A stretch of DNA of 64,000 nucleotides, taken from assembly GCF_010093345.1 (NCBI RefSeq), contig NZ_PDWT01000001.1, positions 1,426,001-1,490,000 on the forward strand, given 5' to 3'. The notes beneath the pieces were generated by a model. The model was not told the DNA's origin. It did no database searches and worked only from the letters and a program-made list of their open reading frames with translations. The DNA comes from Pseudoxanthomonas yeongjuensis. GTDB taxonomy: Bacteria > Pseudomonadota > Gammaproteobacteria > Xanthomonadales > Xanthomonadaceae. Position 1 is the stretch's first letter; each line of letters opens with the position of its first letter. Both the position numbers and the translations under genes were made by a program. Below are positions 13,229 through 17,916 of this stretch, piece by piece.

Positions 13229-14868
13229 GCGGCGGAGCTTCCCAAGCATCGTGGAATACACGGGCGTTCTGGGGCAACGCCGCGTTGCTGTCGTTGCTGG
13301 CCGTGCTCGGCTTCGCCTTGTCCGCTCTGCAGGCAGGCGACTGGTGGACGGCAGCGCCACGCAATGCCCGCTGGGCCGGGGCCGCGATAACGGTACTTGC
13401 CTATGCGTTGTTCTGCGGAGCGATCCTGTGGCGCTCGCGCCCGCGACGGGAGCGCGACGAGACTCCTGCAGGACCGGGAGCCTGCTTCGTCCTCGTCGCC
13501 TACGCCAGCCAGACCGGCTTCGCCCGGCAACTGGCCGAACGCAGCGCGGAAAGTCTGCGCCAATCCGGCCTGACCGTGAAACTGCGCGCACTCGGCCAGG
13601 TCGATGGCGAGTTGCTGGCAACGGTCGGACGCGCCCTGTTCGTGGTCAGCACCACCGGCGAAGGCGACCCACCGGATCCTTCGCTCGGCTTCGTGCGCGG
13701 GGTGATGGCGCAGCCGGCAACGCTGGGACATCTGCGCTATGCCGTGCTGGCCCTGGGCGACCGCGAATACGAACATTTCTGCGGTTTCGGCCACCTGCTC
13801 GACGACTGGCTGCGCCGGCATGGCGCGCGGCCGTTGTTCGATCTGGTCGAAGTCGACAACGCCGATGAAAGCGCGCTGCGTCACTGGCAGCATCATCTGG
13901 GCCAGATCGGCGGCGTCACCGACCTGCCGGACTGGACTCCGCCGCGCTACGAACCGTGGATCCTGCGCGAACGCCACGAGCTCAACCCCGGCAGCGTGGG
14001 CGGCGGCGTATTCCGTCTCGCGATCGCGCCACCCGCCGGCACCGCTCCTGCATGGGAAGCGGGCGATATCGCCGAGATCGGGCCGCGCCATTCCGCCCAG
14101 TCCGTGGCGATGCTGCTGCAAACGGCTGGCTTGCCCGACGATGCGATCGTGGAAGCCGATGACGCGCAGGAATCCCTGGCAACTTTGCTGGCGCGCTCGC
14201 ATCTTCCCACCGCCGATGAAATCCGCTCCCTCGACGCCCAGACCATCGCGGACACGCTCAAGCCGCTTCCGCATCGCGAGTACTCGATTTCCTCCCTACC
14301 CGCTGATGGCACCGTGCAGATCCTGCTGCGCAGGATGCTGCGCCCGGACGGCACTCCGGGCATCGGTAGCGGCTGGTTGTGCGACCACGCCCCGATCGGT
14401 GGCGAGATAGCGTTGCGCTTGCGCAGCAATCCCAACTTCCACGTTCCCGATCCCGCCAGGCCGATGATCATGGTCGGCAACGGCACCGGCATCGCCGGGC
14501 TGCGGGCGTTGCTGAAAGCACGCATTGCCGCAGGCGCGCGCCGCAACTGGCTGCTGTTCGGCGAACGCAACGCCGACCGCGATTTCTTCCATGGCGACGA
14601 AATCCGCGCATGGCAATCGCAGGGCTTCCTGCAACGCATGGACCTGGCTTTCTCGCGCGACCAGGATCGACGCATCTATGTGCAGCACAGGCTACAAGCC
14701 GCAGGCGAGGCCTTGCGCGAATGGGTGGGCGCGGGCGCGGCGATCTATGTCTGCGGCAGCCTGGCCGGAATGGCGCCGGGCGTGGATGCGGCGTTGCGTT
14801 CCACGTTGGGCGATGACCGGGTCGAACAGATGCTGGCGGACGGCCTGTATCGCCGCGACGTGTATTGA
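13225..14868 (+). CDS. Membrane-anchored NADPH flavoprotein reductase (sulfite-reductase-alpha/CPR type)
   Basis: A 547-residue diflavin reductase. Two N-terminal membrane helices ('LLSLLAVLGFALSAL' and 'AGAAITVLAYALFCGAIL') anchor it. A flavodoxin domain follows ('VLVAYASQTGFARQLAERSA', 'VVSTTGEGDPPD'), then an FAD-binding region ('PHREYSISSLP') and an NADPH-binding domain ('PMIMVGNGTGIAGLRALL', 'LLFGERNADRDFFHGDEI', 'YVCGSLAGMAPGVDAAL'). It would take electrons from cytosolic NADPH to a membrane partner, most likely the PepSY protein. It lacks the hemoprotein partner of true sulfite reductase, so that name would mislead. Last gene of the operon. Confidence 0.9.
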   Translation: MSGGASQASWNTRAFWGNAALLSLLAVLGFALSALQAGDWWTAAPRNARWAGAAITVLAYALFCGAILWRSRPRRERDETPAGPGACFVLVAYASQTGFARQLAERSAESLRQSGLTVKLRALGQVDGELLATVGRALFVVSTTGEGDPPDPSLGFVRGVMAQPATLGHLRYAVLALGDREYEHFCGFGHLLDDWLRRHGARPLFDLVEVDNADESALRHWQHHLGQIGGVTDLPDWTPPRYEPWILRERHELNPGSVGGGVFRLAIAPPAGTAPAWEAGDIAEIGPRHSAQSVAMLLQTAGLPDDAIVEADDAQESLATLLARSHLPTADEIRSLDAQTIADTLKPLPHREYSISSLPADGTVQILLRRMLRPDGTPGIGSGWLCDHAPIGGEIALRLRSNPNFHVPDPARPMIMVGNGTGIAGLRALLKARIAAGARRNWLLFGERNADRDFFHGDEIRAWQSQGFLQRMDLAFSRDQDRRIYVQHRLQAAGEALREWVGAGAAIYVCGSLAGMAPGVDAALRSTLGDDRVEQMLADGLYRRDVY

Positions 14869-14875
14869 CCCGTTC

Positions 14876-14945
14876 GTAGGAGCGCCCCTTGGGCGCGATG
14901 CTTTTGCTCGGCGGTCCACGAAAAGCATCGCGCCCAAGCTCCTAC
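14876..14945. repeat. GTAG-type REP pair between the reductase and hutD
   Basis: Arms starting GTAGGAGCG at 14876 and, inverted, ending CTCCTAC at 14945 form a long hairpin (arms about 25-30 nt with small bulges). It separates two convergent genes. The minus-strand GTAG at 14942-14945 contains the TAG stop codon of hutD. Confidence 0.85.
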
Positions 14946-15526
14946 AGTCGGTTCAGCTTGATCGCCAGCAATTCGCCGCCGCCTTCCAGCGCATAGCGCC
15001 GACGCTCGTTTCCATCGATCAACAGCGCGGTATCTCCGGCCCACAAGTCGGGCAGGCCCGAAGCACGGTCGAATTTCGCCTGGCCAGACAGCAGGTGGAT
15101 CGCCCAGCTCGTTCCCGGCTCGGTGAAGAACAGCATCGGCCCCACCAGCGGGCGGTGCAGCAGTTCGGCGGCGATCGCGTCGCGTCGCCACATCAGGTTG
15201 AAATCGTGGGTCGGCCCGTCCAGCAATTCGCTGCTCACCACGCGCTCGCCGGCAAAGCGGATGCGTTCGTGCGGCGGTTGCAATTCACGGACCTCGCCAT
15301 CCTCGAAACGCAATCGCAGCCCGTTGCCGCGAATCAGCACCAGTTCCCGGTCGATACCGGGGAACACGGAAAACGGTCCATCCTGCTCGATCTCCGCAAT
15401 CGACAGACGCCAGTCCCAATCCTCGCGATCGGGCATGCGCGCGATCTCGCGGGTCCAGCCGGTTCCGTTCTTCCAGCGCACCCGCCGGTACTCGTTGGCC
15501 GGAATCACCTTCGATGCATCCGCCAT
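14942..15526 (-). CDS. HutD/Ves family protein
   Basis: A 194-residue bicupin-like protein of the HutD/Ves family. The N-terminal signature 'YRRVRWKNGTGWTREIARMP' is diagnostic, followed by 'DWDWRLSIAEIEQDGPFSVFPGIDR'. The family appears in histidine-utilisation operons and as E. coli Ves; its biochemical function is not established. No hut genes are nearby. The stop codon lies inside a REP. The upstream region holds the repeated GGA-loop element described at 15577-15780. Confidence 0.88.
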   Translation of the reverse strand: MADASKVIPANEYRRVRWKNGTGWTREIARMPDREDWDWRLSIAEIEQDGPFSVFPGIDRELVLIRGNGLRLRFEDGEVRELQPPHERIRFAGERVVSSELLDGPTHDFNLMWRRDAIAAELLHRPLVGPMLFFTEPGTSWAIHLLSGQAKFDRASGLPDLWAGDTALLIDGNERRRYALEGGGELLAIKLNRL

Positions 15527-15576
15527 GCCACTACTTCTCCGTTTGGATTCCGGGAGAGTTTAACCGCCACGCAAGA

Positions 15577-15780
15577 CATCGCCCGGCCGCACTTCCTGTG
15601 CGGGCCGGGCGATGGTTACTTCCCTGTGGGCTTCTTGCCGACGACTGGCGGCTTCCTGCCCCGTTACTCTCCAGGCAGACTCGACGGCTGCCTGGCGATG
15701 CAAGTACGTCCTTGTCGGCATCCTTGCCGTGATCCCCCTGGCTTCCTGCCCCCTGCGCCACGCCGCGTCCCTGTAACGAG
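15577..15780 (-). ncRNA. Candidate CsrB/RsmZ-like RNA with repeated GGA stem-loops
   Basis: The hutD-comEA gap encodes no plausible protein but is highly patterned. Read on the minus strand it has eight copies of a CA(A/G)GGA(A/C/U)G-like heptamer (plus-strand positions 15592, 15619, 15631, 15652, 15707, 15719, 15742, 15766; the 15631 copy has AGA). Several sit in hairpin loops: 15577-15614 (16-bp stem with one bulged base, loop AGGAA), 15716-15729 (CGGCA-AGGA-TGCCG), 15650-15660 and 15740-15750 (GGC-AGGAA-GCC). Repeated GGA loops define CsrB/RsmX/Y/Z RNAs that titrate CsrA/RsmA. No strong promoter or U-run is visible, so it may be processed from comEA read-through. On the plus strand the same loops would be CUUCC-rich. 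Strand and function are inferred. Confidence 0.4.
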
Positions 15781-15802
15781 ACGTGATGCGGGGATGTTCC
15801 GA

Positions 15803-16147
15803 TCAGCGGCGGGTTACCGGCTTGGCCTTGGGCGCGGCCGCGGCATTGCCCGCCGCAGGCTTCTGTGCCGGTGCGGCGCGGCCGAGCTCGATGCGGTCGC
15901 GGTTCTTTTCCACGGTCTTCAGACCGATGCCCTTGACCATGGCCAGTTCCTCGGCGCTCTTGAACACGCCGTTGGCCTTGCGGTAATCGACGATGGCCTG
16001 GGCCTTGGCCGCGCCCACGTTGACCAGCACCGCATCGATGGTGGCCGCGTCGGCGGTGTTGATGTTGACCTTGTCGGCGGCGTAGGCGCTGGTGGCCAGC
16101 AGCAGCGACAGGGCGATGGATTTGAGGATGATGGCGAACGATTTCAT
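15803..16147 (-). CDS. comEA: ComEA-family helix-hairpin-helix DNA-binding protein
   Basis: A 114-residue exported protein: signal peptide 'IILKSIALSLLLATSAYAAD' and a ComEA-type double helix-hairpin-helix domain ('VNINTADAATIDAVLVNVG', 'KAQAIVDYRKANGVFKSAEEL', 'VKGIGLKTVEKNRDRI'). It ends in an Ala/Pro/Lys-rich tail. ComEA binds incoming DNA in the periplasm during natural transformation. The type IV pilus motors pilT/pilU are also in this window (50.6-52.9 kb), though not adjacent. It is divergent from the M20 peptidase. Confidence 0.92.
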   Translation of the reverse strand: MKSFAIILKSIALSLLLATSAYAADKVNINTADAATIDAVLVNVGAAKAQAIVDYRKANGVFKSAEELAMVKGIGLKTVEKNRDRIELGRAAPAQKPAAGNAAAAPKAKPVTRR

Positions 16148-16288
16148 GGCAACTCTCCTTGTGGCGATGGTTGGGGTTCGCCGGGGCCGGAACCTTCCGT
16201 CCGCCGGTGTGGACAGTCTCCGCCAGTACCTTTGGCGAAAATATCGCCGGAACCCGGCAAGCGATGCCGGGGTTTGCCGCGCTGGCCT

Positions 16289-16304
16289 GTAGGGAAACCC
16301 CTAC
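16289..16304. promoter_or_regulatory. Short palindrome between comEA and the M20 peptidase
   Basis: GTAGGGAAACCCCTAC is a 6-bp-arm inverted repeat (4-nt centre) in the 278-nt divergent region between comEA (start 16147) and the peptidase (start 16426). Such compact dyads are typical of LuxR/NarL-type regulator sites. The regulator and the regulated gene are unknown. Nothing else in this gap was recognised. Confidence 0.35.
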
Positions 16305-16425
16305 CCTCCGCCCCTGGCCGCAGGATCGGCATTCCGCATGCGGTCCTTCCTGTCCATTGCGGCGTCGATGCCCGCAAAAACCTACAGGCGTAGAATCGGC
16401 GTACATGCAAGCAACCGGAGAAACC

Positions 16426-17916
16426 ATGGATACCGCCAAGATCGACCGCTTCGTCGCCGCCAAATGGGACGACGAAATCGTGCCCCAGCTGGTCGAATAC
16501 ATCCGCATCCCCAACAAGTCGCCGATGTTCGACAAGGACTGGGTGGCGCACGGCTACATGGACGATGCGGTGAAGCTGATGGAAACGTGGGCGCGTAGCC
16601 AGCCGATCCCGGGCATGCAACTGGAAGTGGTCCGCCTGGAAGGGCGCACACCACTGATCTTCATCGAGATCCCGGCTAGTGGTCCTGATACCGGCGCCGA
16701 CACCGTGCTGCTCTACGGCCATCTGGACAAGCAGCCGGAAATGACCGGCTGGGATGATGGCCTGGGTCCGTGGACCCCGGTGATCAAGGGCGACAAGCTG
16801 TTCGGCCGCGGCGGCGCCGATGACGGCTACGCGATCTTCGGTTCGCTGGCCGCGATCCAGGCGCTGCAGGAACAAGGCGTGCCGCATGCGCGCTGCGTGG
16901 TGCTGATCGAGGCCTGCGAGGAATCCGGCAGCTACGACCTGCCCGCCTACGTCGATCATCTGGCCGAACGCATCGGCAAGCCGTCGCTGGTGGTCTGCCT
17001 GGATTCGGGCTGCGGCAACTACGACCAGCTCTGGTGCACCACCTCGCTGCGCGGCATGGCCGGCGGCAATTTCTCGGTCAAGGTGCTGTCCGAAGGCGTG
17101 CACTCCGGCGATGCCTCGGGCATCGTGCCTTCCAGCTTCCGCATCCTGCGCGAACTGATCTCGCGCCTGGAAGATGAAATCAGCGGGAAGATCAAAGCCG
17201 AAGGCCTGTTCGTGGATATTCCGCAGGAACGCCTTGAACAGGCGTCCAAGGTGGCCGAGGTGCTGGGCACGGAGGTCTACGACAAATTCCCGTTCCTGCC
17301 CGGCATGCAGCCCATGGCGGACGACCTGACCGAACTCGTCCTCAACCGCACCTGGCGCCCGGCCCTGTCGGTCACCGGTGCCGATGGCTTGCCGCCGCTT
17401 GACTCGGCCGGCAACGTATTGCGCCCCCATACCGCGGTAAAGCTGTCCCTGCGCCTGCCACCCACCCTGGATGGCAAGCGCGGTGGCGAAATCCTGAAGG
17501 AGCTGCTGTTGCGCGATCCGCCCTATGGCGCCCAGGTCGAGCTGGCACTGGAGAAGGCCTCCAGCGGCTGGAATGCGCCGGCGCTTTCGCCGTGGCTTTC
17601 CAATGCCATCGAAGCCGCGTCGCAGGCCGCGTTCGGCAAGCCGGCGATGTACATGGGCGAAGGCGGCACGATTCCGTTCATGGGCATGCTGGGCGAGAAA
17701 TTCCCCGGTGCGCAATTCATGATCACCGGCGTGCTGGGTCCGCATTCCAATGCGCATGGGCCCAACGAGTTCCTACACATCCCCATGGGCAAGCGGGTCA
17801 CCGCCTGCGTGGCCAGGGTCATCGCCGACCACCATGGCGCCAGCCTCCGCGGCGAGACCATGGGCGTGGCCGCGGTGGCCGGCGGCGACCAGCATGGCGA
17901 GCATGGCTGCTGCTGA
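16426..17916 (+). CDS. M20-family metallopeptidase (dipeptidase-like)
   Basis: A 496-residue zinc aminopeptidase/carboxypeptidase of the M20 family without a signal peptide. Metal and catalytic residues are seen in 'LLYGHLDKQPE' (His, Asp), 'GRGGADDGYAIFG' (Asp-Asp), 'IEACEESGSYDLP' (Glu-Glu) and 'GVLGPHSNAHGPNEF' (His). The dimerisation domain includes 'GVHSGDASGIVPSSF'. The length and motifs match the CNDP dipeptidase branch. The ATG at 16426 follows GGAG with 5-nt spacing; ATG 16405 is in frame but lacks that spacing. The protein ends in 'HGCC'. Confidence 0.92.
   Translation: MDTAKIDRFVAAKWDDEIVPQLVEYIRIPNKSPMFDKDWVAHGYMDDAVKLMETWARSQPIPGMQLEVVRLEGRTPLIFIEIPASGPDTGADTVLLYGHLDKQPEMTGWDDGLGPWTPVIKGDKLFGRGGADDGYAIFGSLAAIQALQEQGVPHARCVVLIEACEESGSYDLPAYVDHLAERIGKPSLVVCLDSGCGNYDQLWCTTSLRGMAGGNFSVKVLSEGVHSGDASGIVPSSFRILRELISRLEDEISGKIKAEGLFVDIPQERLEQASKVAEVLGTEVYDKFPFLPGMQPMADDLTELVLNRTWRPALSVTGADGLPPLDSAGNVLRPHTAVKLSLRLPPTLDGKRGGEILKELLLRDPPYGAQVELALEKASSGWNAPALSPWLSNAIEAASQAAFGKPAMYMGEGGTIPFMGMLGEKFPGAQFMITGVLGPHSNAHGPNEFLHIPMGKRVTACVARVIADHHGASLRGETMGVAAVAGGDQHGEHGCC

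Follow-up and report, generated by a model that had tools for sequence, protein, structure and literature searches.

The 3′ untranslated region (UTR) of comEA in Pseudoxanthomonas yeongjuensis very likely encodes an RNA of the RsmU type, that is, a sponge for RsmA. RsmU itself has been known since 2020; here the RNA occurs in what appears to be a doubled form, and it is spread across the family Xanthomonadaceae. The window (the whole stretch of 64,000 nt that was analysed) had been read from its letters alone as holding, between comEA and hutD, an RsmA sponge RNA of the CsrB/RsmZ kind. The part of this sequence-only reading that stands is the predicted GGA-loop sponge on the minus strand, whereas the family assignment gives way to RsmU: nothing in the window attains the gathering score of an Rfam family, and CsrB, RsmY, and RsmZ are absent even from the seven matches obtained between 15300 and 16000 at E values up to 10. 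Its remark that no characterised sponge was known from Xanthomonadaceae is superseded by the report of RsmU from the same 3′ UTR in Xanthomonas campestris (PMC7694677).

The gap between the comEA stop codon and hutD measures 276 nt and, because comEA, hutD, and the proposed RNA share one direction, constitutes the comEA 3′ UTR (Table 1). An independent gene of the CsrB/RsmZ type is not indicated, because comEA adjoins the RNA on the same strand and, in X. campestris, RsmU comes from the comEA mRNA. A scan with the sigma-70 consensus returned no promoter-like site in 14800-16600. Cotranscription of comEA and the RNA is established for X. campestris only (PMC7694677). The ComEA protein of the window is 87% identical to that of P. 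gei (the best named match among the matches listed), and comEA is flanked by a divergent M20 peptidase gene (Pfam Peptidase_M20). One CsrA/RsmA gene was found in this genome, and its product, as read from the sequence, keeps in place L4 and R44, which are RNA-contact residues of CsrA (PMC7652899).

Table 1. Features of the comEA-hutD region (positions in the window)
Feature	Position	Strand	Basis or remark
comEA, whose transcript presumably carries the RNA	15803..16147	minus	ORF; Pfam HHH_3 5.1e-18
RsmU-like RNA element, comEA stop codon to end of terminator stem	15577..15802	minus	10 GGA triplets; R1 match
Starts of CA(R)GGA-like repeats	15773, 15748, 15726, 15714, 15658, 15637, 15626, 15598	minus	sequence
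Upstream hairpin (P1 region), GGA 15770-15768 at loop edge	15758..15786	minus	MFE fold
Hairpin P2, GGC-AGGAA-GCC	15740..15750	minus	sequence; alignment A4
GGA between P2 and P3	15733..15735	minus	sequence
Hairpin P3, CGGCA-AGGA-TGCCG	15716..15729	minus	sequence
Site P4, ACAAGGACGT, fits ACA-N-GGA-N-GU	15706..15715	minus	offset 87 after comEA stop
Spacer hairpin CCAGGCAG/CTGCCTGG	15671..15695	minus	MFE fold; sequence
Second block: hairpin P2′, GGC-AGGAA-GCC	15650..15660	minus	sequence; R1 match
Second block: hairpin P3′, GGC-AAGAA-GCC, loop without GGA	15629..15639	minus	sequence
Second block: site P4′, ACAGGGAAGT	15618..15627	minus	offset 175 after comEA stop
P5 terminator-type hairpin, 16 pairs, one bulged C, loop AGGAA	15577..15614	minus	covariation in relatives
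End of terminator stem and next bases, longest T-run 2	15567..15577	minus	sequence
hutD, same-strand gene downstream of the RNA	14942..15526	minus	ORF; Pfam HutD 4.1e-53

If the terminator stem is taken as its end, the element is about 226 nt long. Rereading the minus strand recovered all eight of the CA(R)GGA-like repeats counted previously, seven of them with GGA (the one at 15637, CAAGAAGC, lacks it), along with the hairpins as first described (15614-15577, 15729-15716, and GGC-AGGAA-GCC at 15750-15740 and 15660-15650); several of the repeats do lie in small hairpin loops. GGA-bearing hairpin loops are those of P2, P3, P2′, and P5, and another GGA (15672-15670) sits at the 3′ edge of the spacer hairpin. 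Two sites, ACAAGGACGU and ACAGGGAAGU, match ACA-N-GGA-N-GU and are natural versions of the ligand selected by SELEX for CsrA (consensus RUACARGGAUGU; Dubey 2005, cited by PMC7652899), with C or A in place of the U that precedes GU. Because no T-run follows the stem, termination of the RNA may be weak, and run-on towards hutD is possible.

Within the window alone, the enrichment is moderate, and on its own sequence the finding is only suggestive. When the 224-nt stretch 15579-15802 was shuffled 2,000 times with its dinucleotides preserved, the count of GGA (10, versus a shuffled mean of 5.70) was reached in 21 shuffles and that of CA-N-GGA (4, versus 0.53) in a single one, while the four GGA in small hairpin loops (versus 2.09) were not significant (289 of 2,000 shuffles). 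A GGA count as high is found in 0.47% of the 224-nt stretches of the window (both strands), and 8.4% of 224-nt stretches of the window have a loop-GGA count as high; the opposite strand of the element's own stretch has one GGA. A 236-nt stretch folds at -113.8 kcal/mol, compared with -94.35 kcal/mol for its shuffled versions (z of -4.03, 200 shuffles). It is the comparison across genomes (site, covariation, model, and GGA bias) that lifts the element above chance.

For this comparison, 190 loci were read downstream of comEA, 110 of them taken from 192 genomes with a ComEA match and 80 being named loci taken of 382; some genomes occur in both sets, and 156 of the loci are distinct. In 111 of the 156 distinct 400-nt stretches we found ACANGGANGT, which is the core of the consensus selected for CsrA by SELEX. 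In the 131 gaps in which hutD is recognised at least 100 nt away (at most 250 nt of each being counted), the mean number of GGA is 8.76, versus 3.13 for TCC, with GGA exceeding TCC in 112 gaps, equalling it in 8, and falling below it in 11. The site itself lies on the comEA strand in 100 of these gaps and on the opposite strand in none, and the 31 gaps without it show no GGA excess (4.10, versus 4.39 TCC). The common layout consists of a P1 hairpin, P2 (GGGGC-AGGA-NGCCC), a free GGA, P3 (GGC-AGGA-NGCC), P4 (ACANGGANGU), and P5, the latter being the terminator hairpin, often with GGA in its loop. Alignment A3 consists of 46 rows hand-picked from 66 nonredundant loci with exactly one ACANGGANGT; because its loci were chosen for that site, the invariance of the site there is by construction, the unselected figure being the 111 of 156 given above. 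Across A3, GGA occupies the loop of P2 in 43 rows, P3 in 33, P4 in all 46, and P5 in 34, and a T-run of at least four follows the terminator in 24.

Since BLAST searches with the window DNA were too insensitive (matches in 18 of 149 family genomes), we used a covariance model, R1, built from A3, which contains no Pseudoxanthomonas but does include the Xanthomonas loci L040 and L060. R1 matches the minus strand of the window at 15564-15666 with 69.5 bits (E of 3.9e-11 for a search of the window and 2.4e-9 for one of the whole genome, where the next-best match has an E of 0.21). Its match on the plus strand scores 20.5 bits and is carried by the palindromic terminator; two further matches in the window score 15.7 and 7.1 bits. 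These scores, together with the one-sided distribution of ACANGGANGT, settle in favour of the minus strand the choice that the sequence-only reading had left to testing.

Within the family, R1 finds matches (E of 0.01 or better) at 118 places in 113 of 198 genomes, representing 34 of 54 genera. In a sample of the order, 30 of 200 genomes match, 29 of which fall within the family, and in a sample of the class, 8 of 229 match, of which 3 fall within the family and the rest are weak. The single match outside the family in the order sample (G209, 36.1 bits), which is weak and has no ComEA in its flank, and the five weakly matching genomes of the class sample (41.7 bits or less) were not counted as RsmU; some of these stretches were inspected by eye only. 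Judged from these three scans, the RNA seems to be characteristic of the family. Weak matches are lost to the stricter filters of the large scans, such that the absence of the RNA from a given genome is not firm: P. gei (G117), for example, has no match in the family scan, yet its locus has both sites. As to location, 94 of the 118 places lie 1 to 258 nt downstream of a listed comEA on the same strand. Of the other 24, 16 were placed: one abuts comEA (G057), eight have a ComEA profile match in the flank, two are without ComEA (G046 and G106), and five are situated elsewhere (four of which were read).

In most Pseudoxanthomonas loci, the P2-P3-P4 block appears, from the sequences, to be doubled. 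Two ACANGGANGT sites, 74 to 88 nt apart, are present in all nine sampled genomes of genus group g1 and in 19 of the 24 named loci of Pseudoxanthomonas (the two sets have six genomes in common); the remaining named loci include one with an exact and a variant copy, two with one site, and two with none. Among the 190 loci, two sites within 260 nt are confined to this genus; L254, a locus of another genus that was fetched later, also has them. In the interval that begins at the comEA stop and runs 68 nt beyond the start of the last site, GGA numbers 9 to 15 in 21 of 22 aligned relatives and 6 in the other. At least four T follow the terminator in 13 of these 22 relatives and three in the other 9, compared with a longest run of two in the window. 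Traces of a direct repeat are visible in L027 (a 20-nt pair, 82 nt apart and 95% identical, around the site) and in L035 (two 14-nt copies at a distance of 74 nt, 86% identical). In the window, the same search detected no direct repeat, so that duplication there rests on the layout, the two sites, and a weak, partial R1 match of 20 bits to the first block (15668-15756).

The sequence-only reading had also proposed covariation analysis of the gap in related genomes, and the stems do covary there. In A3, 85.3% of cells are paired, versus 75.3% after shuffling; both partners change in 19 of 25 pairs; and covariation scores 0.297, versus 0.150 (each reached in 0 of 500 shuffles, a test that related sequences can beat even without structure). 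Sliding the partners by 1 to 3 columns leaves at most 43.9% of cells paired and a score of 0.084. Much of the signal comes from the terminator (helices 4 and 5), with double changes also in four of five pairs of P2 and three of four of P3. Alignment A4 holds the window and 22 rows chosen for two sites (L146 being the one with an exact and a variant copy); it leaves out P. kalamensis (L132) and P. sangjuensis (L191), where the site is missing, and P. broegbernensis (L195), P. jiangsuensis (L199), and the unclassified Lysobacteraceae locus L136, which have one each. Its score is 0.195, versus 0.106 when shuffled (0 of 500 shuffles), and its counts of double-change pairs and of pair types are not outstanding (reached in 33 and 172 of 500 shuffles, respectively). 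Support in A4 is carried by P1 and P5, the short stems of the blocks scarcely varying: P2 is paired in 100% of cells across the 23 rows, with two of its three pairs invariant. P1 (helix 1) shows double changes in five of six pairs; of these six, four are broken in the row of the window.

The RNA and comEA do not always occur together. Two genomes of one genus, G046 and G106, have no ComEA match genome-wide at an E of 0.001, nor in the flanks of the RNA, and retain the RNA (45.9 and 49.6 bits with R1, respectively) between hutD and the divergent M20 peptidase gene that neighbours comEA in the window (77 to 79% identity). If the RNA is expressed there, selection would have preserved the RNA and not the ComEA protein. 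Conversely, comEA occurs without ACANGGANGT in five Thermomonas loci and an Arenimonas locus of the named set, as well as in P. kalamensis and P. sangjuensis, the last of which has a terminator-like hairpin. CsrA was found in 192 of the 198 family genomes; because it is nearly universal and comEA can lack the site, some lineages may have no need of the RNA or may use another antagonist.

In X. campestris, Tang and colleagues identified RsmU (sRX061) as an RsmA-binding sRNA yielded by the comEA 3′ UTR and derived from the comEA mRNA, on evidence from Northern blotting, electrophoretic mobility shift assays, and coimmunoprecipitation (PMC7694677). The RNA exists in forms of 117 and 77 nt starting 25 bp past the comEA stop, the longer of which ends in a Rho-independent terminator, and its overexpression partially mimics an rsmA mutant (PMC7694677). 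Structure predictions assigned four GGA motifs to the long form and three to the short one; when the four were changed to AAU, RsmA binding persisted, with a faster-moving complex remaining, and the overexpression phenotype was kept (PMC7694677). A strain without RsmU is described as equal to the wild type in virulence, hypersensitive response, and swarming, and the authors' BLAST search restricted RsmU to Xanthomonas (PMC7694677). Searching the literature by title and opening of the abstract, we found no report of RsmU outside that genus; subscription papers may hold one.

The window element and RsmU share their place in the comEA 3′ UTR, the comEA strand, GGA hairpin loops, and a terminator-type hairpin at the end, and one covariance model spans both the window and Xanthomonas loci at the place of RsmU. 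They differ in size and ending (117/77 nt with a terminator in RsmU, versus about 226 nt to the end of a stem lacking a T-run in the window) and in the number of SELEX-like sites, which is one in the Xanthomonas sequences here and two in the window. In eight of eight sequences of one Xanthomonas group (X. prunicola and seven others, several identical over the interval and X. campestris not included), the interval defined by the published offset (25 bp) and length (117 nt) of RsmU, +26 to +142 relative to the comEA stop, reaches the T-run of the terminator, which ends at +141 in seven and at +143 in one. The 117-nt RsmU interval of these sequences contains eight GGA, and its first 77 nt contain seven; loci of the other Xanthomonas group have five or seven GGA in the interval. 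Should X. campestris resemble the first group, the four-site mutant may have kept several GGA, a testable reason for the persistence of its RsmA binding and phenotype.

CsrB and CsrC of Escherichia coli and RsmX, RsmY, and RsmZ of Pseudomonas sequester CsrA/RsmA through many GGA sites in hairpin loops, as is predicted for the window element, which differs from them in lacking a match to their Rfam models and in its link to comEA. The promoters of RsmX, RsmY, and RsmZ in Pseudomonas are activated by GacA. The csrB and csrC genes have their own promoters, activated by UvrY, and CsrB contains 22 GGA (PMC7652899).

By analogy with X. campestris, for which derivation from the comEA mRNA, RsmA binding, and overexpression phenotypes were established, the RNA in P. 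yeongjuensis would most likely arise as part of the comEA mRNA and be released from it by cleavage. The GGA sites in its small loops, above all ACAAGGACGU and ACAGGGAAGU, would then bind several RsmA dimers and draw them off their mRNA targets, so that RsmA activity would drop whenever the comEA promoter is active; a second P2-P3-P4 block would raise the number of sites. A broader proposal, to which we give even chances, is that RsmU is the ancestral RsmA sponge of Xanthomonadaceae, an RNA gene that rides on comEA transcription, survives the loss of comEA, and has been enlarged in Pseudoxanthomonas towards the scale of CsrB. Its occurrence in 34 of 54 genera, its covarying stems, and its presence without detectable comEA argue that the RNA is under selection as an RNA. 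If the proposal is right, RsmA would be titrated upon expression of a competence gene. The RsmA antagonist that we found reported for the family is RsmU, called limited to Xanthomonas and dispensable for the traits tested (PMC7694677).

Several observations sit uneasily with a sponge: the second block has a loop without GGA (15637), the window copy breaks most of its P1 pairs, lacks a T-run, shows neither significant loop-GGA enrichment nor a direct repeat of its own, and R1 matches far fewer genomes than encode CsrA, to which are added the persistent binding of the AAU mutant and the wild-type behaviour of X. campestris without RsmU. RsmA might, alternatively, act in cis on the 3′ UTR, mainly stabilising the comEA mRNA, with any titration incidental. 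That most R1 places adjoin comEA would fit such a role, as would the findings that, in X. campestris without RsmA, RsmU is undetectable and the comEA mRNA less stable; deletion of the 3′ UTR, however, is reported to lower comEA mRNA slightly only (PMC7694677). Moreover, G046 and G106 keep the RNA with no detectable comEA to protect, and the two site blocks of Pseudoxanthomonas would be poorly explained by mRNA protection alone; we consider the cis role unlikely.

A leader function, in which the RsmA sites control translation of hutD, is very improbable. Although hutD follows on the same strand in 175 of the 190 loci and the window copy lacks the T-run of a terminator, a terminator hairpin with a T-run of at least four precedes hutD in over half of the rows of A3 and of the Pseudoxanthomonas relatives, hutD lies anywhere between 41 and 1,364 nt beyond the comEA stop, and five Stenotrophomonas loci (L155, L165, L173, L176, and L206) have the site with no recognised hutD in the fetched flank. 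We give hardly any credence to activity of the opposite strand, the CUUCC loops of which would pair with Shine-Dalgarno sequences: the plus strand does match R1 and also folds, because the hairpins are palindromic, but its score is far below that of the minus strand, and ACANGGANGT never occurs on it in the 131 gaps. A comEA terminator plus GC-rich filler with GGA by chance is just as implausible. The loop-GGA result in the window and the two Pseudoxanthomonas species lacking ACANGGANGT after comEA would be expected of such filler, while conservation across genera, covariation, the R1 match, the GGA excess and retention of the site over distinct loci, and the paired sites in g1 and the named Pseudoxanthomonas loci speak against it. 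An RsmU-type sponge encoded by the comEA 3′ UTR is thus the reading that we prefer.

Some further observations concern CsrA, short palindromes, and the region upstream of comEA. Members of genus g14 have multiple CsrA matches (nine in G115, six in G137, and five each in G061 and G189), whereas most family genomes have one, and the RNA site is absent from five g14 loci (L101, L103, L109, L117, and L120). Short palindromes of the type GGCACANGGANGUGCC occur at L241, L255, L259, L260, and L235-L237, distant from comEA where this was checked (L241, L255, L259, and L260), with seven matches in G489; these could represent either a different family of repeats or CsrA-like sites. Upstream of comEA, at 16289-16304, a palindromic, operator-like site (consensus GTAGGANTTTTCCTAC) lies in the interval that separates this gene from the divergent M20 peptidase gene; the window copy reads GTAGGGGTTTCCCTAC, with both arms altered together, and the degenerate pattern has two exact matches and two with one mismatch in this genome. 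In L247 and L248 (from G106 and G046, respectively), TTTTCCTGAC and TTTTTCTGAC are still visible and resemble the site upstream of comEA elsewhere. The form TTTCCTAC is present in 57 of 77 stretches upstream of comEA, 134 to 184 nt ahead of the start codon.
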